Virus record (IMG/VR): IMGVR_UViG_3300033153_001688
Location: 1-25,513 of that record
Length of the DNA: 25,513 bases
Reading direction: 5' to 3' (one strand)
Source of the DNA: a virus
Below are positions 3,730 to 19,242 of this stretch, one piece after another; position 1 is the first letter of the stretch, and the number at the start of each line of letters is the position of its first letter. The notes under the pieces are model-generated. The model worked only from the letters and a program-made list of their open reading frames with translations. It had not been told where the DNA came from and did not search any database. A program made the position numbers and the translations under genes.

Positions 3730-6177
3730 ATGGCAGAAGTTAAAGATGTAACCATACGTATTAACGTAGATGATGGAGACGTTAAAAACACTAAAAAAGA
3801 CTTTGATAGTCTAAATAAATCCGTTACAGACGGCTCTAAGCAAATGACAGGCTCATTAAATACAATGAGTGGTTCTTTGTTAAAGGTAGGGGCTGCTCTA
3901 GGTGGTGCTTTTGCTTTTAAAGCAGTTATTGGAGATGCAGTTAAAAGGATAAGAGAGTTTGATCAGTCAATGGCTAATCTAGGAGCTATTACAGGTAAGA
4001 CGGGTAAAGAATTAGAGGAGTTTCAGAAAGGAGTATTACAAGTAAGTAAAAATACGGGCAAAGGTGCTGCTGATGTAGCAAAAGCCTTTCAAATAGTAGG
4101 CTCTGCAACTCCTGAGTTATTAAAGAGTGCTGAGGCATTAGGAGCAGTAACAGAACAGGCTATTATATTATCTAAAGCAGGAGGATTAGAAGTACCTGAA
4201 GCAGCGGATGCCCTGACTAAGGCGATGAATCAGTTTGGAGCAAGTGCTGAAGATGCGGCTTTATTTACAGATATATTAGCTACCTCTCAACAAAAAGGAA
4301 CAGCTACAATAGCTCAATTAAGCGAATCATTAAAGAATGTAGGGGCAGTAGCAAATGCTGCTGGATTAAGTTTTGAGGAAACAAACGTAGCATTACAATC
4401 ATTAGCAAAAGGCGGCTTAACTGGAGCAGAAGCAGGAACGGGACTAAGAGGTGTTTTAACTAAATTATCTGCTCAAGCGGATAGTAGTATTAACCCATCA
4501 ATGACTTCGTTAACAGATGTTATAGAAAACTTATCTAAAAAGAATCTTGATCTAAAAAGTGCTACAGAATTAGTAGGATTAGAATCTGCTAAGACATTAT
4601 TAACATTAACATCACAAAAAGATGTAATAAATACATTAACAGGAGAATTAAATGAGGTTGGAAATGCTTCAGAACAAGCAGCTCAAAGATTTGAGACTAT
4701 AGACGGTCAACTAGAGAAGTTGGATAGCTCTTATGAAAGGTTTATATTAAGCCTAGAGGATGGTGATGGTGTTATATCACAAGTAGGATCCAGTTTAATA
4801 GGCACATTTGATGATTTACTAAACAGCTTTACAGAGTTAAATAACTTTGACTTTAACTCATTATTTGGAGCAGAATCATTTGTTGCTGCTGATAAGGCTG
4901 CTTTTGATTTGTCAGCTACTATGTTTGATTTAATTGGTACTTGGACTGTTGGCGCTGATAAAATGGGAGATAGTATTAGGCAAATGGGTGAAGAGGCTAC
5001 CAAGTCCACAACTTCTGTTGATGAGTCATTTTCTAGGTTATCATCTTCAATGTTGGCTAATAAAGATACAGCCCAAACTATAGTTAATACATATATCAAG
5101 TTAGGATTTAGTGCTAATGAGGCTAGAGATAAATATATTGATTTAGTTAAGGCACAAACAAAATCTACAGAGGCTACAATGGGTAATACAGAAGCCTTAG
5201 AAGAAGATACTCAGGCAACAAATGATAATACTAAGTCTAAAGAAAAACAATTAGACTTCTTTGATAAATTAGCATTAAAAATAAAAGAAACTAAAGAAGC
5301 TATTGAAAAAGAGGATATACTAGGTACTATATTCGATGATAGTTTTGATGAAGAAGAAGACCCTGCATTCTTAAAGGCGGTTGGATTAGATGATGAGGGA
5401 TTAGAAAAAATGAAAGAGGGTCAAGAGAAAAAGAGAGAGTTAGTAGCTGAGAACGCTTCATTAGAATTAGAAGAAGATTTACTAAGACAAGAGGCACAAT
5501 TAGAGCAAGACCAGTTATTTGCACAAGCGAAACAAGATATAAACGAACAATTAGGGTTTAGTGCATTAGCATTAGCAGGAGCTATAGCTTCAGCAGCAGG
5601 AGATAGTCAAGCAGCACAAGCAGCAGCTTTAGCATTTGATAAGATTGCAGCTATAGCAAGTATTATTATTAATACACAAAGAGCAAACGCTTTAATATCA
5701 GCTACAATACCAGCTCCTGCGAGTTTACCATTAATAGCTAAGAACAATATATCAGGAGCTTTAGGTGTTGCTACAGTTGTCGCTACTGCAATACCACAAG
5801 CAAAGGCAATAACAGAGTCTAAAAAGTTAAAAGATGGAGAGATTAGAATACAAGGACCAGGAACTACAACAAGTGACTCAATACCTGCTATGTTATCAAG
5901 GGAGGAAAGTGTTATTAATGCGAAAAGTTCAATAAAGCACGAAGGGGCATTAAAAGCTATTAATGATGATAGGTTTGATGATTACTTAAATAAAGTATTG
6001 ATTAAGCAGCTCTATATGGGTAAGGTTAAAGAGAATAAAGCATCTAAAAAGGCACTACAAAATAGTATAAACTTTCCTAAAGCCTTTAGAATGTCTAATG
6101 CTAAAGAAATTAGTAAGGATATAGCAAAAGTAATGGATGAGCATAACTTCTTAAACCAAAATGGAAAATGGGAGTAA
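3730..6177 (+). CDS. Tail tape measure protein
   Basis: This 815-residue protein sets tail length and is ejected with the DNA. Residues about 70-325 match the TP901-type tape measure core: helical, Ala/Gly-rich, with the recognisable stretch TIAQLSESLKNVGAVANAAG (193-212) and GLTGAEAGTGLRGVL (229-243). A charged coiled-coil region follows (about 500-610), then an Ala-rich hydrophobic segment (about 610-690). The C-terminal motif GPGTTTSDSIPAMLSREE near residue 708 is typical of Bacteroidota phage tape measures. At roughly 1.5 angstrom per residue the length suggests a tail of about 120 nm, consistent with a siphovirus. The chaperone-like gene lies upstream, and it overlaps the next tail gene by 10 bases. 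Confidence 0.93.
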   Translation: MAEVKDVTIRINVDDGDVKNTKKDFDSLNKSVTDGSKQMTGSLNTMSGSLLKVGAALGGAFAFKAVIGDAVKRIREFDQSMANLGAITGKTGKELEEFQKGVLQVSKNTGKGAADVAKAFQIVGSATPELLKSAEALGAVTEQAIILSKAGGLEVPEAADALTKAMNQFGASAEDAALFTDILATSQQKGTATIAQLSESLKNVGAVANAAGLSFEETNVALQSLAKGGLTGAEAGTGLRGVLTKLSAQADSSINPSMTSLTDVIENLSKKNLDLKSATELVGLESAKTLLTLTSQKDVINTLTGELNEVGNASEQAAQRFETIDGQLEKLDSSYERFILSLEDGDGVISQVGSSLIGTFDDLLNSFTELNNFDFNSLFGAESFVAADKAAFDLSATMFDLIGTWTVGADKMGDSIRQMGEEATKSTTSVDESFSRLSSSMLANKDTAQTIVNTYIKLGFSANEARDKYIDLVKAQTKSTEATMGNTEALEEDTQATNDNTKSKEKQLDFFDKLALKIKETKEAIEKEDILGTIFDDSFDEEEDPAFLKAVGLDDEGLEKMKEGQEKKRELVAENASLELEEDLLRQEAQLEQDQLFAQAKQDINEQLGFSALALAGAIASAAGDSQAAQAAALAFDKIAAIASIIINTQRANALISATIPAPASLPLIAKNNISGALGVATVVATAIPQAKAITESKKLKDGEIRIQGPGTTTSDSIPAMLSREESVINAKSSIKHEGALKAINDDRFDDYLNKVLIKQLYMGKVKENKASKKALQNSINFPKAFRMSNAKEISKDIAKVMDEHNFLNQNGKWE

Positions 6178-10483: not shown

Positions 10484-10538
10484 CCAAGAACTGGAGAGTT
10501 AGAACTCAAATAAATTAATAACTTAAAATGTGAACCTT

Positions 10539-11066
10539 ATGGCAAATTTATATTGCGATACTCCCGTTCCAGCATATCAAGAAGACTTGTGTGCAAATAC
10601 TGAAGGAAGAATATTAGCTATTGCTTATTTAAGAAGCGATCACGCTATTACAGACCCTACAGACTCAGGTCAATGGAATACTGGATTAGGAGATGGAACA
10701 GTAGTTATTATAAAGAATGTGAGAGGTGCAAAGCCGAAAGGCGCTCCTGTTCAAATCGATGGTTTTGGTCGTCAAAAAACTAGAACCGTAGGATATGAGA
10801 GGACAGCAACTTATGCTCATCCTGATGTTATAGATAACGTAGATTTCTACGATGTTTTAAACTTCGATAGCTCTCATTCTATTGCTTATTTTACTCAAAG
10901 TGGTCATATTTGGATGCCTCCTAGCGAGAATCCAGTAGCTAATATTGATGCTGATTACACTATTGAGGAAGGACTAGATACGTCTATTGTATGGGATGTA
11001 GCAGTTACTTGGGCAGCACAAACAATGAATGTGCCGTCTGTAGCTCCTGCTGATGTTTTTGAATAG
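10539..11066 (+). CDS. Probable virion protein, possible major tail protein (175 aa)
   Basis: The ATG at 10539 (MANLYCDTPVPAYQEDLC) is preferred over an in-frame GTG nine bases upstream. The 175-residue protein has no membrane or catalytic motif. It is preceded by a 55-base untranslated leader and followed by the strongest terminator in the window. Compared with its neighbours it uses more C-ending codons such as TTC, GAC and TAC in places, as highly expressed genes do. These features suggest an abundant structural protein, for example a tail tube subunit, although tube genes normally precede the tape measure. I recall similar CDTP...CG/CAN...GRI N-termini from Bacteroidota phage structural proteins but cannot name the role. 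Confidence 0.55.
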   Translation: MANLYCDTPVPAYQEDLCANTEGRILAIAYLRSDHAITDPTDSGQWNTGLGDGTVVIIKNVRGAKPKGAPVQIDGFGRQKTRTVGYERTATYAHPDVIDNVDFYDVLNFDSSHSIAYFTQSGHIWMPPSENPVANIDADYTIEEGLDTSIVWDVAVTWAAQTMNVPSVAPADVFE

Positions 11067-11086: not shown

Positions 11087-11121
11087 CCTCCCTCCTCTTT
11101 ACAAATGAGGGGGGTTTTTTT
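11087..11121 (+). terminator. Strong intrinsic terminator ending the tail operon
   Basis: CCTCCCTC (11087-11094) pairs with GAGGGGGG (11107-11114) over eight bases with one G-U pair and a 12-base loop, followed by seven T (11115-11121). It lies 20 bases after the stop of the 10539 gene. This is the only canonical hairpin plus T-run that I find on the + strand here. Confidence 0.9.
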
Positions 11122-11137: not shown

Positions 11138-11145
11138 TACATTTG
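11138..11145 (+). promoter_or_regulatory. Putative promoter of the glycosyltransferase island (first box)
   Basis: TACATTTG matches TAnnTTTG and lies 17 bases after the terminator T-run. A transcript from here would carry a leader of about 110 bases before the ATG at 11260, including the inverted repeat at 11174-11240. Confidence 0.5.
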
Positions 11146-11173: not shown

Positions 11174-11240
11174 CCTCCCATTTTAAGGACTTCTTTTTAG
11201 TTTTTTTTCATATACTTTTGTTCACCCTTATTGTGGGAGG
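11174..11240 (+). repeat. Long-range inverted repeat CCTCCCA / TGGGAGG in the island leader
   Basis: CCTCCCA (11174-11180) and TGGGAGG (11234-11240) are perfect 7-base reverse complements about 53 bases apart. The right arm ends 19 bases before the ATG at 11260. GGGAGG could also pair with CCTCCC of the upstream terminator (11087-11092). The repeat flanks the second promoter-like box, so it could act at DNA or RNA level. Function is inferred only. Confidence 0.45.
11213..11220 (+). promoter_or_regulatory. Putative promoter of the glycosyltransferase island (second box)
   Basis: TACTTTTG matches TAnnTTTG and would start transcription near 11225, about 35 bases before the ATG at 11260. It lies between the arms of the inverted repeat 11174-11240, so a transcript from this box would contain only the right arm, whereas one from 11138 would contain both. 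Confidence 0.45.
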
Positions 11241-11259
11241 TTATATTTAAACAATTACA

Positions 11260-11394
11260 ATGATAGAAGAATACTTTCAAGAAAAAGAAGATCAAAAGAA
11301 AAAAGAGAAGTTAATAGCGTGGAAACAGTTTTATTTAGAAAATAACAACGGATTACAAGCTAAAAGAATTGGATATAAATTAGAAAAACTTTGA
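11260..11394 (+). CDS. Short charged protein (44 aa), first gene of the island
   Basis: The ATG at 11260 opens a 44-codon frame ending TGA at 11392-11394. The product starts MIEEYFQEKEDQKKKEK and is very rich in Lys and Glu, probably a helix. Its stop overlaps the TTG start of the next gene, so it could serve to bring ribosomes to that weak start codon. I do not recognise a family. It lies just after two promoter-like boxes and is the first translated ORF of the island. Confidence 0.55.
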   Translation: MIEEYFQEKEDQKKKEKLIAWKQFYLENNNGLQAKRIGYKLEKL

Positions 11395-12212
11395 GTAAGG
11401 GAATTTTACTAATAGCAATGGGTAAACACTATGCTTATTTAGCTGATAATATGGCTAAATCTATTAAGCGTTTTAGTGACATTCCTATATCTTGTGTAAC
11501 GGATGAAACTGAATCAGCTATATTAGGGGAATATGATAAGATCATAAGACCTGAATTAGCAGACACCTTAGAAGGTTATGCTTTTAATCCATTTAAGCTA
11601 AAGACTTACATATATGACTATACACCTTACGATCATACTATTTATTTAGATGTAGATGGTATAGCATTAAAAGATTTAGAGCCTTTATTTAAGTTTAAAT
11701 TTAAGATTCAAGAAGTATCTAAATATACTTATGAAACTGCTGATAATTGTGATATGGTATGGACTAATAAAGCAGGAAAATGTCTTAAAGATGTTTTTGA
11801 TGCTTGGAAATTACCACAAGATAGAGAATATCCTGAATACAATAGTAGTATTATAGTGTTTAACAAGAGTAAAAAGAATGAGAAATACTTTACTAGGGTT
11901 AAGAAGAACTATTTAGATAGAAGAATACCTCATAAAGCTATTGGAGGTCTATATCCCGATGAATTAGCTTGGAATTTAGCCTCAGCACAATTACAGCACT
12001 ATACAGAAACACCTCATAATAAGCCTATATTCTTTGATTGGGAAAATAGAAAGATGCCAATAGATGAAATGCAAAGAAAATACTTTATTTTAGGTATGGC
12101 AGGGGGTTATCATACGGGTAAATTAAAGGCTTTCTATGAGAATACTTGTAGACAGTTTAGTAAGAATTGGAGATTTGATTCAATGAAGAAAATATTTCAC
12201 AAAAACAAATAA
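11391..12212 (+). CDS. Glycosyltransferase, GT-A fold (GT8-like), 273 aa
   Basis: A TTG start at 11391 is chosen because it gives the N-terminal strand GILLIAMG needed for a nucleotide-sugar fold and overlaps the previous stop (TTGA). The next ATG would cut into that strand. HTIYLDVDGIAL (82-93) carries a DxD motif (D87-V-D89) that binds metal and the nucleotide sugar in GT-A enzymes. Further conserved-looking segments are YPEYNSSIIVFNKS and the late acidic patch YPDELAWNLA. The family resembles GT8 and related phage glycosyltransferases. Sugar and acceptor cannot be read from sequence. It is the first enzyme of an operon of transferases. Confidence 0.75.
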   Translation: MSKGILLIAMGKHYAYLADNMAKSIKRFSDIPISCVTDETESAILGEYDKIIRPELADTLEGYAFNPFKLKTYIYDYTPYDHTIYLDVDGIALKDLEPLFKFKFKIQEVSKYTYETADNCDMVWTNKAGKCLKDVFDAWKLPQDREYPEYNSSIIVFNKSKKNEKYFTRVKKNYLDRRIPHKAIGGLYPDELAWNLASAQLQHYTETPHNKPIFFDWENRKMPIDEMQRKYFILGMAGGYHTGKLKAFYENTCRQFSKNWRFDSMKKIFHKNK

Positions 12213-12215
12213 ATT

Positions 12216-12449
12216 ATGAGTAGCAGAACTAAAAAGATAACTAAGAACGCTCAAATAGAAGTTTTACACGAAAAGCTAGATGAATTTGGTCAAGCTATAT
12301 ACTATGTAAATATGTATATGGAGAAATATGGATTAGTAAAACACTATCATTCGTTTATACAAGCATCAGCAGAGGACAAGCCATTACCTAATAAGTTATT
12401 ATTTAGTGATGAAGAAATGCCTAGAGAAACTAAAGCAGAAGTAATATAG
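12216..12449 (+). CDS. Hypothetical protein (77 aa) in the island
   Basis: This 77-residue protein starts three bases after the previous stop and ends one base before the GTG start of the next gene. It is basic at the N-terminus (SSRTKKITKNA), has a central helical, aromatic part (YYVNMYMEKYGLVKHYHSF) and an acidic C-terminus. No motif or membrane segment is visible and no family is recognised. Its place between two transferases suggests it belongs to the same process. Confidence 0.6.
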   Translation: MSSRTKKITKNAQIEVLHEKLDEFGQAIYYVNMYMEKYGLVKHYHSFIQASAEDKPLPNKLLFSDEEMPRETKAEVI

Positions 12450-12450
12450 G

Positions 12451-13176
12451 GTGGAAAAAGTAAGTATAATAATACCTATACATCAAATCTTAAAAAGAGG
12501 ACTTAAAAGAGTACGTAATAGCGTTATATCTTTACAATCTCAATTAGATTATATTGAGGACATTATTATAGTTAATAGTTCTGATAAGATTCAGTATGAT
12601 ATGTTAGAGGCTTTATTAGAAGGTTTTAAAGTTAAACATATTCATTACCCATTACATTGTTTTAATAAGCCTAAACTACTTAATTATGGAGTAAGTCAAT
12701 CTAACTCTAAATATGTTATGTGTACTGATGGGGATTACTTATTTAAGGATGATTTCTTAGAGGCTTGTAATAGGCATAGAGGAGAAAAGGTAATGATGCA
12801 TAAACAAGTAAGGATGTTACCTAATATGAACTTAAATGAGTCTAAAATAGAGGCTTGGAAGTTTCCTAAGTGTGGATTTAATATATGGGGGACTTTAGCT
12901 AATGGAGCGTGTCAATATGCTACTAAAGAATGGTTTATTAATAATCCTTATCCTGAAGAAATGGATGGGTTTAGCGCTATGGATAATCTAATGACATATA
13001 TGGCTTATAATAACGGCTTAGAGATTAAATGGATCAATGAGAGTGAGATATTACATCAGAATCATCCAGTAGTTAATAAAATGGCTGGAAGTAATAGAGA
13101 GAAATTTGATAGAAACCAAGTAATGTTAAACGAATATATTAACGAACATAATTTACCTTGTTTATTACATAAATAA
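12451..13176 (+). CDS. Glycosyltransferase family 2-like, 241 aa
   Basis: GTG start at 12451. The N-terminus KVSIIIPIHQ is the first strand of a GT2 nucleotide-sugar domain, DIIIVNSSD (37-45) the second, and KYVMCTDGDYLF (87-98) carries the DxD motif (D93-G-D95). The segment GTLANGACQYATKEWFINN followed by FSAMDNLMTYMA and a later ILHQNHP fits the acceptor side and the catalytic and closing parts of GT2 enzymes. The length corresponds to a single catalytic domain without membrane anchor, so the enzyme is cytoplasmic. Its TAA overlaps the ATG of the RNA-ligase-like gene (TAATG). Substrate unknown. Confidence 0.8.
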   Translation: MEKVSIIIPIHQILKRGLKRVRNSVISLQSQLDYIEDIIIVNSSDKIQYDMLEALLEGFKVKHIHYPLHCFNKPKLLNYGVSQSNSKYVMCTDGDYLFKDDFLEACNRHRGEKVMMHKQVRMLPNMNLNESKIEAWKFPKCGFNIWGTLANGACQYATKEWFINNPYPEEMDGFSAMDNLMTYMAYNNGLEIKWINESEILHQNHPVVNKMAGSNREKFDRNQVMLNEYINEHNLPCLLHK

Positions 13177-13886
13177 TGAAACCATTAGGAAGAAAAAATT
13201 ACGGCTCAATACCTCATTTATCTAATAGCAAACTAGGTAAGGGTGATAGTTTCATACATATTGGTCAAGAGAAAATTCTAACAGAAAAGTTAAGAGATAA
13301 AAATGATGTTATATTTGTAACTGAAAAATATGATGGCTCTAATGTTGGTGTAGCAAAAAAAGATGGTAAAATATATGCGATAACTAGAAGTGGGTATGAA
13401 GCTAAAACAAGCCCATATAAACAACACCATTTATTTAATGATTGGGTGGTTGAAAATGAAAGTGTTTTTCAAATAATATTAAATGATGGGGATAGGATTT
13501 GTGGAGAATGGTTAGCCCAATCCCATTCATTAAAATACAAAATAAACAATACAGACCCTATAGTATTCTTTGACTTAATAGATAAGAATAATAACAGATT
13601 ATGTATGGAGGAGTTTTTATTTAGAACAACACATCAAGCCGACCTTAATGTAGCTAGAATAATATTTTGGGGAGGAGCTATTGGTGTGGATGAAATTAAG
13701 GAGAGACTTTTTAATGGCACAAAGGGATTTGAAGTAGTTAATGATTTGCCTGAAGGAATGGTTTACAGAGTAGAGAGAAATGGGAAAGTAGATTTTTTAG
13801 CTAAATGGGTTAGAGGAGACTTTAAGGCGGGTAAAAATATAATAAACAAGAAAGAAGAAGAATTAATTTGGAATTATGAAAGCTAA
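13176..13886 (+). CDS. RNA-ligase-like nucleotidyltransferase (Rnl2/RNA_ligase domain), 236 aa
   Basis: The protein shows the ordered motifs of the covalent nucleotidyltransferase superfamily: motif I EKYDGSN (50-56) with K51 as the AMP-accepting lysine; a TRSG segment (70-73); motif III around DRICGEWLA (106-114, E111); IIIa PIVFFDLID (128-136); motif IV EGMVYRVE (193-200); and motif V DFLAKWVR (206-213, K210). All expected catalytic residues are present. At 236 residues it is a catalytic domain only, lacking the C-terminal domain of T4 Rnl2 (about 330 aa). Such enzymes seal RNA nicks or repair tRNA. Its place, coupled by TAATG and an 11-base overlap between transferase genes, is unexpected, and no kinase/phosphatase partner is visible. 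A different nucleotidyl-transfer role is possible. Confidence 0.85.
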   Translation: MKPLGRKNYGSIPHLSNSKLGKGDSFIHIGQEKILTEKLRDKNDVIFVTEKYDGSNVGVAKKDGKIYAITRSGYEAKTSPYKQHHLFNDWVVENESVFQIILNDGDRICGEWLAQSHSLKYKINNTDPIVFFDLIDKNNNRLCMEEFLFRTTHQADLNVARIIFWGGAIGVDEIKERLFNGTKGFEVVNDLPEGMVYRVERNGKVDFLAKWVRGDFKAGKNIINKKEEELIWNYES

Positions 13887-14538
13887 TCTATATATAAACT
13901 TCTATAGGGATAAAAACCTTGATAGACAGAATGAAATAGACTCTTGTTTGCTTAAAAACTTAGAGAATCATTATATAGATAGATTTATAATAGTTATATC
14001 TGATAAGGATAGAGAATACTTAAAGGACTTAGTAAATGATAATAGGAGAGTTTTTGTAATAATCAAAGAAGATAGACCTACTTATAACTACTATTTTAAT
14101 GCTTCTTTTAATTACCCTGATGATATTAATATAATAGCTAATACTGATATAGTAATTGAAAATGATACAGTTAAGAGGTTAAAAGGATGGAATTGGAGGA
14201 ACTATTGTTTGGCTTTATCAAGATGGGACTATTTAGATGATAATATGAATAAAAACAACTCTAAACATTGGGCTAATAGAGATAGTCAAGATGTTTGGAT
14301 GGTTAAAGGTAGGTTTAAGAATATACCTCAAGCGGATTTTCCACTAGGAAAGAAAGGATGTGATAATAGAATAGCTTATTTATTAGCTAAATATTATGAT
14401 GTAATTAACCCTAGTAGAAGTATAAGGGTTTTTCACTATCATTTAACTAATATTAGAAACTATGCACCTCACGGGAATCCTAATGATTTAATTAAACCAC
14501 CATATAAATTAATATTTCCAACAAAACTACCACAATGA
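13876..14538 (+). CDS. Predicted glycosyltransferase (GT-A-like), 220 aa
   Basis: The start overlaps the previous gene by 11 bases. INIIANTDIVIEND (84-97) holds an N-T-D motif in the place of DxD. It is followed by ALSRWDYLDD, DSQDVWMVKG and the Gly/Asp-rich FPLGKKGCDNRIAYLL. That set is a pattern I recognise from a family of bacterial and phage nucleotide-sugar transferases that usually reads IANSDI...ALSRW...SQD.W...GCDN. The late IRVFHYHLTNIRNY could be the metal-binding histidine end of the domain. There is no membrane anchor. Its stop overlaps the next start (ATGA). Substrate and acceptor are unknown. Confidence 0.7.
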   Translation: MKANLYINFYRDKNLDRQNEIDSCLLKNLENHYIDRFIIVISDKDREYLKDLVNDNRRVFVIIKEDRPTYNYYFNASFNYPDDINIIANTDIVIENDTVKRLKGWNWRNYCLALSRWDYLDDNMNKNNSKHWANRDSQDVWMVKGRFKNIPQADFPLGKKGCDNRIAYLLAKYYDVINPSRSIRVFHYHLTNIRNYAPHGNPNDLIKPPYKLIFPTKLPQ

Positions 14539-15449
14539 AAGCATTATATTTAGGATTAATGACTACATCAGAAGGCTTTACTGGAGCTTTCAGAAGAAAT
14601 GTAGACCAATACAAGCAATTAGCTAGTAACACACCTAATTTTAATACTAGGGCTTGTGAATTAGCTACTAGTTTTAAACCTGATTTAATATTTATACAAA
14701 TACAAACTCCTGATATTATAACTGAGGACTGTGTTAAGTTTTTAAAAGAAACAGGGGCATTTGTCATTAATTGGACGGGAGATGTAAGACACCCTATCCC
14801 AAAATGGTATTATGATATAGGAAAACATATAGATTTAACTTGTTTTTCTAATATGACTGATGTAAGACAGTTTAGAAAAGATGGATTAAAAGCCGATTAC
14901 TTAGAGATAGGTTATGATGAGAACATATATAAGCCCGAAGGAAAGAAAACACCAACTAAAGAGATAGTTTTTATGGGTAATAATTATGGGGATGGCTTTT
15001 TCCCTGAAAGTACTTATAGGAGAGAAATGGTAGAGTTTTTAAGAGAGAATTATAAGGATAGATTTGCTTTTTATGGTAATGGATGGAATTTTAGCTTTGG
15101 TAATTTGAATGGTAGTCAGCCCGATGAAGCAGCAGTTTATAGAGCATCTAAAATAGCTATTAATTTAAGCCATTATAACTATGAGAGATATAATAGTGAT
15201 AGGATTTTAAGGATTATGGGAACGGGGGTTATGTGTTTAACTAGAAACTATGAAGGAATAAAAGAAGACTTTTCTCCTGGAGTTGATTTAGCAGTATGGG
15301 ATAACTTCGATGAATTAAAGACTAATATAGATCACTATTTAGAAAATGATGATGAGAGGCAAGAAATAGCTAGAAAGGGGAATGAGTTAATGTTAGAGTC
15401 TTTTACTTATGATAGTATGATTAAAAATATAATTAAATTAGCAAAATGA
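14535..15449 (+). CDS. Glycosyltransferase, GT-B fold (CgeB/GT4-like), 304 aa
   Basis: The N-terminal half (MKALYLGLMTTSEG..., FKPDLIFIQIQTPD, AFVINWTGDVRH) has the alternating strands of the acceptor-side Rossmann domain of GT-B enzymes. The C-terminal half has KEIVFMGNNYGDG, RFAFYGNGW, the KIAINLSHYNYERYNSDRIL segment and GTGVMCLTRNYEGIKEDFSPG. These are typical of the Glyco_trans_1_2/CgeB-like donor-binding domain, in which the last Glu and backbone contacts hold the nucleotide. It differs in fold from the GT-A enzymes around it, so the island combines both superfamilies. ATGA overlaps on both sides indicate coupled translation. Confidence 0.82.
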   Translation: MKALYLGLMTTSEGFTGAFRRNVDQYKQLASNTPNFNTRACELATSFKPDLIFIQIQTPDIITEDCVKFLKETGAFVINWTGDVRHPIPKWYYDIGKHIDLTCFSNMTDVRQFRKDGLKADYLEIGYDENIYKPEGKKTPTKEIVFMGNNYGDGFFPESTYRREMVEFLRENYKDRFAFYGNGWNFSFGNLNGSQPDEAAVYRASKIAINLSHYNYERYNSDRILRIMGTGVMCLTRNYEGIKEDFSPGVDLAVWDNFDELKTNIDHYLENDDERQEIARKGNELMLESFTYDSMIKNIIKLAK

Positions 15450-16168
15450 AAGTTATAGGATATACTCCTTTACATTACGGGAAAGAATATTTAAGAGAGT
15501 CTTTAATGTCTGTAATAGACGTAGTAGATAAATTTGTAGTATTATATAGTCCAACACCATCTCACGGATCTAATACAGAGGCTAAATGTCCCGACTCAGA
15601 AGAAGAACTAAGAGCAATAGCTGAAGATGTATGTGGAGATAAATTAGTTTGGCACAATAAAGGCTATCATAATGAGGGAAAACAAAGAGGGGAGATATTT
15701 AAGTTTGCTGATGGCTATGATTTATTAGTAACTGTAGATTCTGATGAAATAATGGACACTAATGATTTAAAAAAGGCTCTTGATATAGCTTATAAGGGTG
15801 TTCATAGAAATTATGGGATAAATGGATATATAAACCTTTGGAGAAACTTTAAAACACAATGTAAGGACGGTTTTCAACCAGTTAGAGTTATTAATCTAAA
15901 TAACCAACATAAAGAACAAAGCACTTTAAACATTAAGATATGGCATTTTGGTTGTTGTCAAGGTAGAGCAACAATGGACTATAAATATCTTATACACGGG
16001 CATAAAAACGAATTAAGAGCTAATTGGCTTAAAGACTTCTATTATAGTGATAGAATGAATGATTTACATCCAGTAGCTCACGATTTATGGAATGCAGTAG
16101 AATATGATAAGGACAAGATGCCATCCTATTTAAAAGAGCATCCTTATTTTAATTTAGATAGAGTATGA
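15446..16168 (+). CDS. Glycosyltransferase family 2-like, 240 aa
   Basis: The N-terminus MKVIGYTPLHYGKEYLRESL resembles the first strand and helix of GT2-type enzymes that begin with simple strands and an ELLR-like helix. VDKFVVLYSPT is the second strand. YDLLVTVDSDEIMD (91-104) carries D98-S-D100-E, the metal-binding motif. Downstream PVRVINLNN, KIWHFGCCQGRATM and HGHKNELRANW fit the acceptor region and closing His of this subfamily. Unlike the 12451 enzyme it has a longer acidic insert (residues about 50-65). It is cytoplasmic with no membrane segment, and its stop overlaps the next start (ATGA). Substrate unknown. Confidence 0.75.
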   Translation: MKVIGYTPLHYGKEYLRESLMSVIDVVDKFVVLYSPTPSHGSNTEAKCPDSEEELRAIAEDVCGDKLVWHNKGYHNEGKQRGEIFKFADGYDLLVTVDSDEIMDTNDLKKALDIAYKGVHRNYGINGYINLWRNFKTQCKDGFQPVRVINLNNQHKEQSTLNIKIWHFGCCQGRATMDYKYLIHGHKNELRANWLKDFYYSDRMNDLHPVAHDLWNAVEYDKDKMPSYLKEHPYFNLDRV

Positions 16169-16362
16169 ATGTTTTAGAAATAGATATAAGAGAAAAATTC
16201 GCTTTAACAATTAAAAACAATGGGAGGATATTATATAAAGGATATGTTTTTGCTGATAGTATCACAACAGAATTTAAACCATCAAGAGAAACAGAAATAA
16301 AATTAATAGAATCTATTCATTTTGGAACGACAGTTAGAAATTCTAAACTATTTGAAGAATGA
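16165..16362 (+). CDS. Hypothetical protein (65 aa) in the island
   Basis: The gene overlaps both neighbours by ATGA (16165-16168 and 16359-16362). The 65-residue product appears to be a small beta/alpha protein (LEIDIREKFALTIKNNGRILYKGYVF) without cysteines, motifs or membrane segments. I do not recognise it. Tight coupling to the transferases suggests it works in the same pathway. Confidence 0.6.
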   Translation: MNVLEIDIREKFALTIKNNGRILYKGYVFADSITTEFKPSRETEIKLIESIHFGTTVRNSKLFEE

Positions 16363-16979
16363 TTAAGTACGGAGCTTGTATAGTAGAAACTAGACCTTTT
16401 GCTAATTTAGATAGGCTAATAATAGACCATCATTTAAAGTATTTACCTGATGATTGGGGATTAACTATATATTGTTCAAGACAAAACATACATTTATTAA
16501 AAGATGTAGACTTTGGTAGAGATACAGATTTTATATTATTAGATCCTCATTTCAGTATAGACGACTATAATAACCTATTTAAGTCTTATGAATTTTGGGA
16601 CAATATGCCTTATGAGAAAGTATTAATATTTCAAGTAGATAGTAAGTTGCTTAGAGAGGGTATAGAAGAGTTCTTAGATTATGATTATGTTGGAGCAGCT
16701 TGGACATTTCAAGAACACGGAGGAAATGGAGGATTAAGTTTAAGAAGTCCAGAAATAATGAGAAAAATTTGTGCAATAGCTAGTTTTAGTAAAAGAAATG
16801 AAGACGTTTTATTCTGTAATTTTATGGCTCAAGAAAAATATGGAAATCTAGCACCTAGAGAAGTTTGTCAAAAATTTAGTACTGAGGCAGTATATGGATT
16901 AGGTAGTTTAGGAGTTCACGCTATAGAAAAATGGTTAACAGTAGAACAATGTAATAAAATATTAACTCAATATAAATAA
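16359..16979 (+). CDS. DUF5672-family protein, glycosyltransferase-like, 206 aa
   Basis: The sequence carries the marks of DUF5672: a strand ending VLIFQVDSKLL (88-98) with the FQ-D-S motif in the position of DxD, then DYDYVGAAW (107-115), GGNGGLSLRS (121-130) and RNEDVLFCNFM (146-156) with the conserved Glu-Asp. The family is regarded as a GT-A-type glycosyltransferase, often in polysaccharide loci, with mostly undefined substrates. The usual DYVGAPW is DYVGAAW here. It is the last transferase of the island, followed two bases later by the lipoprotein gene. The family call is firm; catalytic specificity is unknown. Confidence 0.82.
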   Translation: MIKYGACIVETRPFANLDRLIIDHHLKYLPDDWGLTIYCSRQNIHLLKDVDFGRDTDFILLDPHFSIDDYNNLFKSYEFWDNMPYEKVLIFQVDSKLLREGIEEFLDYDYVGAAWTFQEHGGNGGLSLRSPEIMRKICAIASFSKRNEDVLFCNFMAQEKYGNLAPREVCQKFSTEAVYGLGSLGVHAIEKWLTVEQCNKILTQYK

Positions 16980-16981
16980 TT

Positions 16982-17395
16982 ATGAAAAAGATAGTTTTAA
17001 TAGCATTAGTAATAATGTCTTTTGGATGTGGTAAAGAAGAAACTCCACAACCTACTCAAGCAACTCCAGTAGTAAGCAATACATTAACTCAAGTAGTAGA
17101 TGGTAATGTAACAACCTCTCATTCATTTGAATTAGATATATATGAGGAAATAAATGGAAGTTTCCAATTAACAAAAACGAATACTTATACGTTAAATAGT
17201 TTTCCTTATACCTTTATAGATAATATAACAAATAAGTTTTACTATGAGGTTATTTTGCATAATAATTCTACATTTACAAATACTGGTAATGGAGTGATAA
17301 ATGCTACCATAACTTATCAAGGAGATGTTATATTTTTAGAAGCTGATGAGAATACTTGGTCAGAAAATTATACTTCTAGTGTTTATAACAATTAA
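16982..17395 (+). CDS. Putative surface-exposed lipoprotein (137 aa)
   Basis: The N-terminus MKKIVLIALVIMSFGC is a lipoprotein signal peptide with Cys16 after Ser-Phe-Gly, so the mature protein would be lipid-modified at Cys16. It continues G-K-E-E, which fits the K-(D/E)2 type lipoprotein export signal described in Bacteroidota that sends lipoproteins to the outside of the outer membrane. A Pro/Thr/Gln linker follows, then a predicted beta-rich domain of about 100 residues with many Asn and Thr. No family is recognised. A phage lipoprotein on the cell surface could mask a receptor against superinfection. It is the last gene of the glycosyltransferase island. Confidence 0.72.
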   Translation: MKKIVLIALVIMSFGCGKEETPQPTQATPVVSNTLTQVVDGNVTTSHSFELDIYEEINGSFQLTKTNTYTLNSFPYTFIDNITNKFYYEVILHNNSTFTNTGNGVINATITYQGDVIFLEADENTWSENYTSSVYNN

Positions 17396-17400
17396 ATTAG

Positions 17401-17410
17401 TATATTTGTA
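17401..17410 (+). promoter_or_regulatory. Putative promoter of the head operon
   Basis: TATATTTGTA matches TAnnTTTG. It lies six bases after the lipoprotein gene and 50 bases before the ATG at 17461, giving a leader of about 45 bases with a hairpin. Confidence 0.6.
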
Positions 17411-17460: not shown

Positions 17461-19242
17461 ATGCCTACAGTAAATAAGCTAAATTTTAATGATGATGTAG
17501 TTTTAAGTAGCTATATTAAAGGACTAGTAAACGACTCTATATTTCATCCTAATTACGAAGACAACGTAGACCAAGCAAGGCAAATGGGAGTCCACCTAAA
17601 GGGGGATATGCCCTTAGACTTACTAAACACCTATAGACCTAATGAGCCTCAAGCAATATATCAATATAGACAAGAGATATATGAGCCAACTACAGAAAGT
17701 GAAGGTAAAAGGATTATAAATGTATTATCTAAAATACAACAATCATCTAATTACTCAATAAGTTTTGAAGATCAAAAAAACGTACCTGAAACAGAGACAT
17801 TAAAACAATATACTACAAAAGACTATCCTCAATTCGGTAGTCTTACATCTTGGGCTTTTAATGTAGCTCTTAAATCAGATTTAATAGATGCTAATAGCTT
17901 AGTAGTTGTTAAGCCTTTAATTATACCTGATAATGAAACATCATATTTAAAGCCTTTTACATTTATATATAGGAGTGACCAATTACTAGATTATGGACAC
18001 AATTATTATACAATTTTATTAGATGAAAAGAATGTAGTAAAAGATGTTCCTTTAAAAATATGGGAGGTTGTTACAGATACAGAGATATTAAGAATAATGC
18101 AAACAAACCCATCTAATCCTGGAGTTGTTAGTATTGAAGTAGAATTTACTCATAATTTTGGAGAGCCTCCAGCTTATTTCTTAGGTGGAGATTATAGAGA
18201 GGAAACAGTTCCTTTTGCTTTTGACTCCTATGTAAGTGGTATTTTACCTTTTTGGAATAAGGCAGTAAGAATGGAGAGTGATTTAGATGCTCAATATGTA
18301 AATCATAATTATTTAGAAAGAGTTGAGGTAGAAGTTGAGTGTGATGCAGGATGTCAAAACATAGATGGTGTTTATGGAGAGATGAGAGAAAAAAACACTA
18401 GACTAAGCAATGGAGAAGAAATATTTGTTACTTGTAAGAGATGTGCTGGTAGTGGTTTTGTAAATGGTAGAAGTCCAATGGGAGTTACAACCGTTAGAAA
18501 GGATGCTTTTGAGGGTGCTAATGGTGGAATGGAGTTTCCTGGAGTTGCATATATTGAGAAACCTATTGACATAGTAGAATTACAAGAGAAAAAGATAGAT
18601 TTACTTATATCTAAAGGATTTTCTTCTATTAATATGGATATTATAGATAAGGTTGGAGAGAATCAATCAGGAAAGGCTAAAGATATAGATAGAACAGAAC
18701 TAAGTTCATTCTTAAATAAGGTAGCTGATAATATGTTTGATAACATACTTAAAAATGCCTTTAAATATATTGCTATGTGGAGGTTTTCAGTAATAAATGA
18801 TGTTGTACTTCCTATTATTAATAAGCCTACTACATTTAATGCTCTAAATGAGTCTTTACTAGTAGATGAAATTAAGACATTAAATGAGGCAGGAATAAAT
18901 ACTACTCAATTTGAACTAGATTTAATAGCTAAAAAGTTCCCTAATGATATGGCTAAACAAATGTTTATGAAAAACATTATAGAACTTGATCCATTATCTG
19001 GTAAAACAGAAGAAGAAAAGGCTAATATAGTACTAACTGGAGGAGCAACAAGAGAGCAATTTATAATAAGTTCAAACATTAGAGGATTTATATTAGATGC
19101 TATGGAAAAGAATGAAGGATTTTTAGAAGAGAGTAGGGAATCTAAGATGAAGAAACTTGTTGAACTAGCGAAAAAACAATTAGTTTTACCAATAGATTTA
19201 TCAAATGGCACTACCGAAGAAAACACGAAACCTACTGAATGA
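17461..19242 (+). CDS. Portal protein with a Cys4 (putative zinc) insertion, 593 aa
   Basis: Size, position (first gene of the head module, before the head-morphogenesis genes, scaffold and capsid) and the pattern of the C-terminal third support a portal, the dodecameric ring at the capsid vertex. That third contains EKPIDIVELQEKKIDLLISKGF and a helical segment ending WRFSVIND, a stem/wing-like region. Residues C294 and C298 (CDAGC) and C325 and C328 (CKRCAGSG) form a likely zinc-binding unit; CxxCxGxG is the DnaJ-type zinc motif. I recall similar cysteine-rich inserts in related Bacteroidota phage portals. The gene overlaps the next one by 38 bases. The portal call is strong by context but lacks a signature motif. 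Confidence 0.75.
   Translation: MPTVNKLNFNDDVVLSSYIKGLVNDSIFHPNYEDNVDQARQMGVHLKGDMPLDLLNTYRPNEPQAIYQYRQEIYEPTTESEGKRIINVLSKIQQSSNYSISFEDQKNVPETETLKQYTTKDYPQFGSLTSWAFNVALKSDLIDANSLVVVKPLIIPDNETSYLKPFTFIYRSDQLLDYGHNYYTILLDEKNVVKDVPLKIWEVVTDTEILRIMQTNPSNPGVVSIEVEFTHNFGEPPAYFLGGDYREETVPFAFDSYVSGILPFWNKAVRMESDLDAQYVNHNYLERVEVEVECDAGCQNIDGVYGEMREKNTRLSNGEEIFVTCKRCAGSGFVNGRSPMGVTTVRKDAFEGANGGMEFPGVAYIEKPIDIVELQEKKIDLLISKGFSSINMDIIDKVGENQSGKAKDIDRTELSSFLNKVADNMFDNILKNAFKYIAMWRFSVINDVVLPIINKPTTFNALNESLLVDEIKTLNEAGINTTQFELDLIAKKFPNDMAKQMFMKNIIELDPLSGKTEEEKANIVLTGGATREQFIISSNIRGFILDAMEKNEGFLEESRESKMKKLVELAKKQLVLPIDLSNGTTEENTKPTE

Follow-up and report, generated by a model that had tools for sequence, protein, structure and literature searches.

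The locus described here raises the question of what a tailed phage glycosylates with six glycosyltransferase (GT) genes placed between its tail and portal genes. Sugar genes of phages are usually interpreted as modifying DNA or LPS, and virion glycosylation has been proven in few phages. The window (the whole stretch of DNA analysed, a 25.5 kb record of 25,513 bases) belongs to a tailed phage and is known as a metagenomic fragment. Tail genes run up to position 11066 and are followed by the island (11260-17395), downstream of which lies the presumed portal gene. The landmarks of the window are the following:

580-1920, terminase gene.
3730-6177, tape measure gene.
11093-11121, + strand, intrinsic terminator at the end of the tail transcription unit that lies upstream (stem at 11093-11114, then a T run to 11121).
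11138-11145, + strand, Bacteroidota-type -7 box TACATTTG upstream of the island, a TANNTTTG box.
11213-11220, + strand, second -7 box TACTTTTG upstream of the island, also a TANNTTTG box.
17401-17408, + strand, -7 box TATATTTG upstream of the portal gene, again a TANNTTTG box.
17461-19242, presumed portal gene (weak PHROG match, with which gene order and relatives concur).
From 21586, presumed capsid gene, by size and gene order, without a family match.

The terminator and two -7 boxes fall inside the 193-base gap ahead of the first island ORF and a further box precedes the portal gene; judged by these signals, the island looks like a transcription unit of its own, which supports the separate promoter region proposed for it in the original prediction. 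TANNTTTG boxes are enriched intergenically, 7 of the 33 in the window lying within 1,273 of its 25,513 bases, and a sigma-70 promoter scan found 63 sites where 77 were expected. No Shine-Dalgarno sites were found ahead of the window genes. The -7 box consensus and the absence of Shine-Dalgarno sites are typical of Bacteroidota (PMC6847099), and from these expression signals we infer a phage of Bacteroidota type.

Besides the six GT genes, the island holds an RNA ligase gene, three small ORFs and a lipoprotein gene. Family calls were made with Pfam profiles against curated cut-offs. All genes lie on the + strand:

11260-11394, +, g0, 44-aa ORF with a TTGA overlap into g1.
11391-12212, +, g1, GT8-like glycosyltransferase, YLDVDG (PF01501 7.3e-5, just under cut-off).
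12216-12449, +, g2, 77-aa ORF, conserved in sister contig L111 by profile annotation.
12451-13176, +, g3, GT2 glycosyltransferase, CTDGD (PF00535 6e-7, over cut-off).
13176-13886, +, g4, RNA ligase with a KYDG motif, optional insertion (PF09414 3e-18, 66.8 bits against a cut-off of 27).
13876-14538, +, g5, GT-A glycosyltransferase with an NTDI motif, cassette core (family profile, AF2 model and PDB matches; no usable Pfam family).
14535-15449, +, g6, GT-B-type glycosyltransferase, cassette core (PF13524 Glyco_trans_1_2 2e-22, 80 bits against 25).
15446-16168, +, g7, GT2-type GT-A glycosyltransferase, DxDE, cassette core (Pfam GT2 0.005, below cut-off).
16165-16362, +, g8, 65-aa ORF, optional insertion, missing from contig G001.
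16359-16979, +, g9, DUF5672 putative glycosyltransferase, cassette core (PF18922 5e-25, 88.4 bits against 24.4).
16982-17395, +, g10, lipoprotein with lipobox SFGC by direct reading, outside the conserved cassette.

The GT families originally assigned to these genes stand, through Pfam matches (g1 and g7 being under cut-off) and GT-A models of g5 and g7. The RNA-ligase-like and DUF5672 enzymes were likewise recovered over their cut-offs, the KxDG nucleotidyl site of the ligase being read directly as KYDG within EKYDGS. The gene junctions agree with our ORF reading; the count of ten genes has to be corrected, as the list behind it totals eleven, the extra one being the 44-aa ORF at 11260-11394 that overlaps g1 by TTGA. 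The lipoprotein showed a weak NCBIfam match to Riean_0653, below cut-off.

To identify which of these genes belong together, we rely on their recurrence in other phages. Viral contigs were scanned with alignments of g7 and g5, which gave 112 and 120 relatives, respectively; dereplication left 80 loci, which we annotated using the profiles of the genes in the window. Family profiles detected g5 in 70 of these dereplicated loci, g6 in 57, g7 in 48 and g9 in 48. The complete set of four was present on one strand in 37 viral loci, in the order g6-g7-g9-g5 (20 loci), g5-g6-g7-g9 (16) or g5-g6-g9-g7 (1). This co-occurrence exceeds chance, since 25 of the 30 g7 loci having 3.5 kb on either side hold all four genes. 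Their pairwise divergences are correlated (Spearman 0.60-0.89, related loci not being independent). By these comparisons g5, g6, g7 and g9 are a conserved cassette. All phages carrying it are metagenomic fragments. Of the ten-gene island described originally, only these four core genes form a conserved unit, and g4 and g8 are optional.

The remaining genes of the island vary. Contig G001, 98% identical to the window, lacks exactly g4 and g8; its g3-g5 joint is a clean ATGA at the position of the missing g4, and an intact ATGA joint is kept where g8 is missing. On this comparison, the phage can dispense with the RNA ligase and with g8, which are passengers. The ligase gene is ~73% identical at the nucleotide level to a gene of Flavobacterium phages 2A and 6H, a clear homolog; no other window gene was detected in common with these phages. 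In L111 (29.7 kb) the order is tail-g1-g2-g3-g5-g6-g7-g9-portal, without g4, g8 and g10 and with extra genes including a methyltransferase-like one. The g1 ortholog of L111 keeps the same DVD, and among the dereplicated loci a g3 ortholog was found in L111 only. In the more distant L137 and L147, a larger g1-like protein also opens the island, and the same site has a distant relative of g7 together with methyltransferase-like genes. No relative of g0 was found among the dereplicated loci, and no g10 counterpart in the syntenic L111 or any other of them.

Purifying selection has kept g3, g5, g7 and g9, with dN/dS well below 1: 0.08-0.28 in the comparison with G001 and about 0.13-0.24 in that with L111, where dS is saturated. 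The comparison with G001 leaves out g6 and the capsid gene, for which the ungapped codon comparison lost frame. Between the window and G001, g6 has at least one one-base length difference.

The cassette nearly always adjoins genes for the virion shell or for packaging. The virion modules that harbour it are of four or more kinds, for which the lineage labels A-D were coined in this analysis. The order is portal-MuF-protease-MCP-[cassette]-head-tail connector in lineage A, ClpP-MCP-[cassette]-portal in lineage B (with capsid and putative tail genes on one side) and tail-[cassette]-portal in the window lineage. In lineage D, whose downstream context comes from contigs L113 and L128, the cassette precedes a terminase and a portal of crAss-like type in the former and a terminase in the latter. 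The window product of 10530-11066 was considered as a possible tail-tube protein; it matched no PHROG, and its profile did not resemble lineage B's putative tail protein.

With hhalign and BLAST, little or no relationship is seen among the MCPs or among the portal proteins of lineages A, B and C (portals of A and B, 48% probability over 107 columns), while g6 and g7 are about 46-62% identical across the three lineages. For this reason it seems that the cassette has moved from one virion module to another and has stayed adjacent to virion genes. In gene trees the cassette genes group largely by lineage, L032 being one of a few exceptions; g9 is more mixed. To avoid picking loci by their GT genes, we used lineage-A capsid genes as bait. 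In 63/63 contigs with enough sequence, g6 was the first gene to be recognised after the capsid gene, and all four enzymes were present in 31/31 contigs that were long enough. As the bait set is one clade with capsid identities of 66-100%, in which samples may repeat species, these counts show fixation and not 63 independent events. The cassette is always downstream of the capsid gene in sampled lineage A and is common to unrelated phages. Such linkage is supportive and alone not defining; the syntenic position indicates probable late co-expression, not the identity of the target.

Models of g5 and g7 were built with AlphaFold from alignments of relatives (mean pLDDT 95.4 and 94.2, respectively) and matched solved GT-A enzymes in a structure search of the PDB. 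Neither family varies at the acidic residues that a GT-A active site should have: N89, D91, D139, D163, H187 and H189 are invariant in g5, and D98, D100 and E101 in g7. In the g9 family, D94, NGG 123-125, R129 and E148-D149 are invariant. GT-A folds with a conserved acidic metal motif are therefore confidently predicted for g5 and g7, and for these two proteins the GT folds originally expected came out in structure prediction. The best PDB folds for g7 were the peptide S-glycosyltransferases SunS and ThuS (TM about 0.5), and its profile matched GmaR, a glycosyltransferase acting on flagellin, at 1.4e-7. In these searches g7 most resembles peptide and flagellin GTs, at the level of superfamily and fold only, and the acceptors of GT2 enzymes are diverse.

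The GT families and folds are directly supported, as are the conservation of the genes, the purifying selection on them and their position. With these in hand, we consider it reasonably probable that the core enzymes of this late operon (g5, g6, g7 and g9) work in the cytoplasm and add sugars to a structural protein of the virion, ahead of particle assembly or while it proceeds. The first sugar would be put by g7 (or g9) on one of the abundant coat or tail proteins, be it the major capsid protein or some other, with host nucleotide sugars as donors, and g5, g6 and g9 would lengthen it into a short common core. Lineage-specific enzymes would decorate the end of the glycan, here g1 and g3 and at other loci GT4, GT25, methyltransferase-like and acetyltransferase genes; such variable decoration would change what the particle shows. 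Acceptor, step order, sugars and benefit are what we infer here.

A cytoplasmic, late-made acceptor is the simplest reading given that no membrane segment was found in the GTs and, in the phage contigs searched, no flippase, no Wzy_C and no thymidylate-synthase-family match over cut-off. Among the three acceptors originally offered, virion proteins are clearly favoured, because phages unrelated to one another have the cassette next to a capsid, portal or terminase gene. The lipoprotein is an unlikely target, as no counterpart of g10 was found in L111 or other loci. The Bacteroidota-type glycosylation motif is D-S/T-aliphatic; by direct reading it is absent from g10, which was rejected as an acceptor on this ground and because the gene is not conserved.

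The third acceptor, host surface glycan, is unlikely but deserves weight. In that case the enzymes would alter LPS or a capsule precursor late in infection and block superinfection or re-adsorption of progeny. Phage GT clusters are usually interpreted in this way, for instance in pelagimyophages (PMC7029224). GT8, GT2 and GT25 relatives work in LPS synthesis, and the lipoprotein gene adjoins the cassette; superinfection-exclusion proteins are often lipoproteins. However, g10 is not conserved along with the cassette, which is fixed at capsid, portal or terminase genes of unrelated phages and not at tail fibres. Moreover, the lack of flippase, polymerase and membrane-anchored transferase noted in the original prediction was borne out: the flippase Wzx (PF01943) was found in 0/16 contigs (control matched in 13), the polymerase/ligase Wzy_C (PF04932) had no match in the phage contigs searched, and no membrane-anchored first-sugar transferase was found, g0-g9 being without transmembrane-type segments.

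It is rather improbable that the island is an insertion hot spot where sugar genes that are unrelated and share no pathway have piled up in the manner of morons. The variable end genes, the coming and going of g4 and g8 and the different sugar genes held by L137 and L147 at the same site would fit; the four genes nevertheless occur together in 37 loci with correlated divergence, and all four are in every lineage-A contig long enough. Glycosylation of modified bases in phage DNA, as in T4-like phages, is very improbable: phage GTs can hypermodify DNA (PMC12619734) and the lineage D cassette is near terminase and portal, but the position is late structural and no thymidylate-synthase-family (hydroxymethylase) match exceeded the cut-off in 16 contigs, several of them of 73-121 kb and possibly incomplete (control matched in 9 genomes). 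Tet_JBP (TET/JBP dioxygenase) matches were 0/18, with a control that also gave none. A role in defence was discarded, the GTs having no PADLOC match.

Glycosylation of the virion by phage-encoded GTs has precedents. According to PMC12363180, mycobacteriophage GTs glycosylate capsid and tail-tube proteins; virion glycosylation in Che8, Corndog and Myrna is attributed to Freeman et al. 2023 as cited there and in PMC12619734. The GTs are phage-encoded in these phages as in the cassette phages; in the mycobacteriophages, capsid and tail-tube proteins are proven acceptors. Maravista, which like Che8 belongs to cluster F1, has its GT genes close to the genome 3' end (PMC11256854), whereas the cassette is a conserved four-GT set fixed at capsid or portal genes; the hosts also differ. 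A tblastn search found no mycobacteriophage matches to g5, g7 or g1. Chlorovirus PBCV-1 encodes most or all of its capsid glycosylation machinery, which is cytoplasmic and has the major capsid protein as its substrate (PMC7019647); compared by description, it resembles the proposed role of the cassette in these respects and differs in being a eukaryotic large DNA virus. Pelagimyophage sugar clusters include several GT genes, GT8 among them, largely in the tail-fibre/host-recognition region and otherwise in scattered small clusters (PMC7029224). GmaR and SunS/ThuS, the closest to g7 by profile or structure, share its fold and superfamily, at low identity and a TM of about 0.5.

Both virion glycosylation by phage GTs and capsid self-glycosylation in chloroviruses are therefore known; what appears new is this cassette, of which we found no description in the literature searched, most subscription papers being outside its scope. 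Cassette phages probably decorate their own particles with a small glycan. We hold the chances even for a wider proposal, in which a four-enzyme glycan-core pathway moved between unrelated virion modules and became fixed next to the capsid, portal or packaging genes of uncultured phages of Bacteroidota, crAss-like ones included, giving structural proteins a shared oligosaccharide core with lineage-specific caps, a chlorovirus-like self-glycosylation. If the virion reading is true, the cassette is a sequence marker for self-glycosylating phages. Virion glycosylation would matter for the stability of the particle, for adsorption and for recognition by the immune system, and the cassette bears on the annotation of widespread environmental phages.

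Relatives were also sought outside these loci. In 50,697 phage records, tblastn, which can miss remote relatives, gave no match for g7 or g1, five for g5, one for g9 and one for g6. A genome-contig scan with a two-sequence g9 alignment gave no match, and one with the g7 alignment detected one phage-like lineage-D contig only, binned in a Methylococcaceae MAG; this origin was rejected as a probable binning error, as cassette relatives look Bacteroidota-type. Against the virion reading, some relatives hold g5-g6 only, or g5 or g9 alone, at other places, and in Synechococcus phage S-SKS1 a g5 relative lies near a sugar epimerase.

Different sugar genes occupy the site between the tail and portal genes in two distant relatives of the window phage:

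L137, 1752-6419: different sugar genes at the tail-portal site
L147, 8505-13181: different sugar genes at the tail-portal site

These genes include one for a GT8-like protein of 740 aa, methyltransferase-like genes and a remote relative of island gene g7. Because the sugar genes found there differ, the tail-portal site serves as an exchange point for such genes. On a 95.6 kb contig (L113, 9428-20600), the conserved four-gene cassette of the island (g5, g6, g7 and g9) precedes crAss-like genes for terminase and portal.

On an unrelated 60 kb viral contig, a large sugar cluster (L014, 7002-20000) directly adjoins the portal gene; judged by eye, it contains GT2, GT4-like, WecB-like, sulfatase-like and radical-SAM-like genes. 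Loci L172, L168, L173, L160, L146 and L169 form a separate group in which g5-g6 is the only part of the cassette present, with a terminase gene nearby in most. A metagenomic phage genome of 595 kb carries a gene of the DUF5672 family, to which g9 belongs (L016, 7959-8591), and the remaining cassette genes are not nearby.

Flavobacterium psychrophilum phages 2A and 6H carry a gene with ~73% nucleotide identity to the RNA ligase gene g4 (13176-13886). From contig G001, which is otherwise 98% identical to the window, g4 is precisely missing: a recent gain or loss at an ATGA junction. The presence of g8 (65 aa, 16165-16362) likewise varies among near-identical phages, and its joints too are ATGA.

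Intergenic promoter boxes of the Bacteroidota -7 type and an associated repeat were located in the window:

229, 2002, 3671, 11138, 11213, 17401 and 20161: intergenic TANNTTTG boxes (n=7)
11174-11240: inverted repeat CCTCCCA / TGGGAGG (7 bases), flanking the second -7 box (11213) upstream of the island

Five of the seven boxes are exactly TATATTTG, and together the seven provide a ready-made promoter map for this phage. The inverted repeat is a possible operator or leader structure.

Beyond the downstream end of the window, G001 has among its late genes one (L012, 5864-6919) whose product shows repeats that look BspA/DUF285-like by eye; this product is probably a fibre or adhesin.
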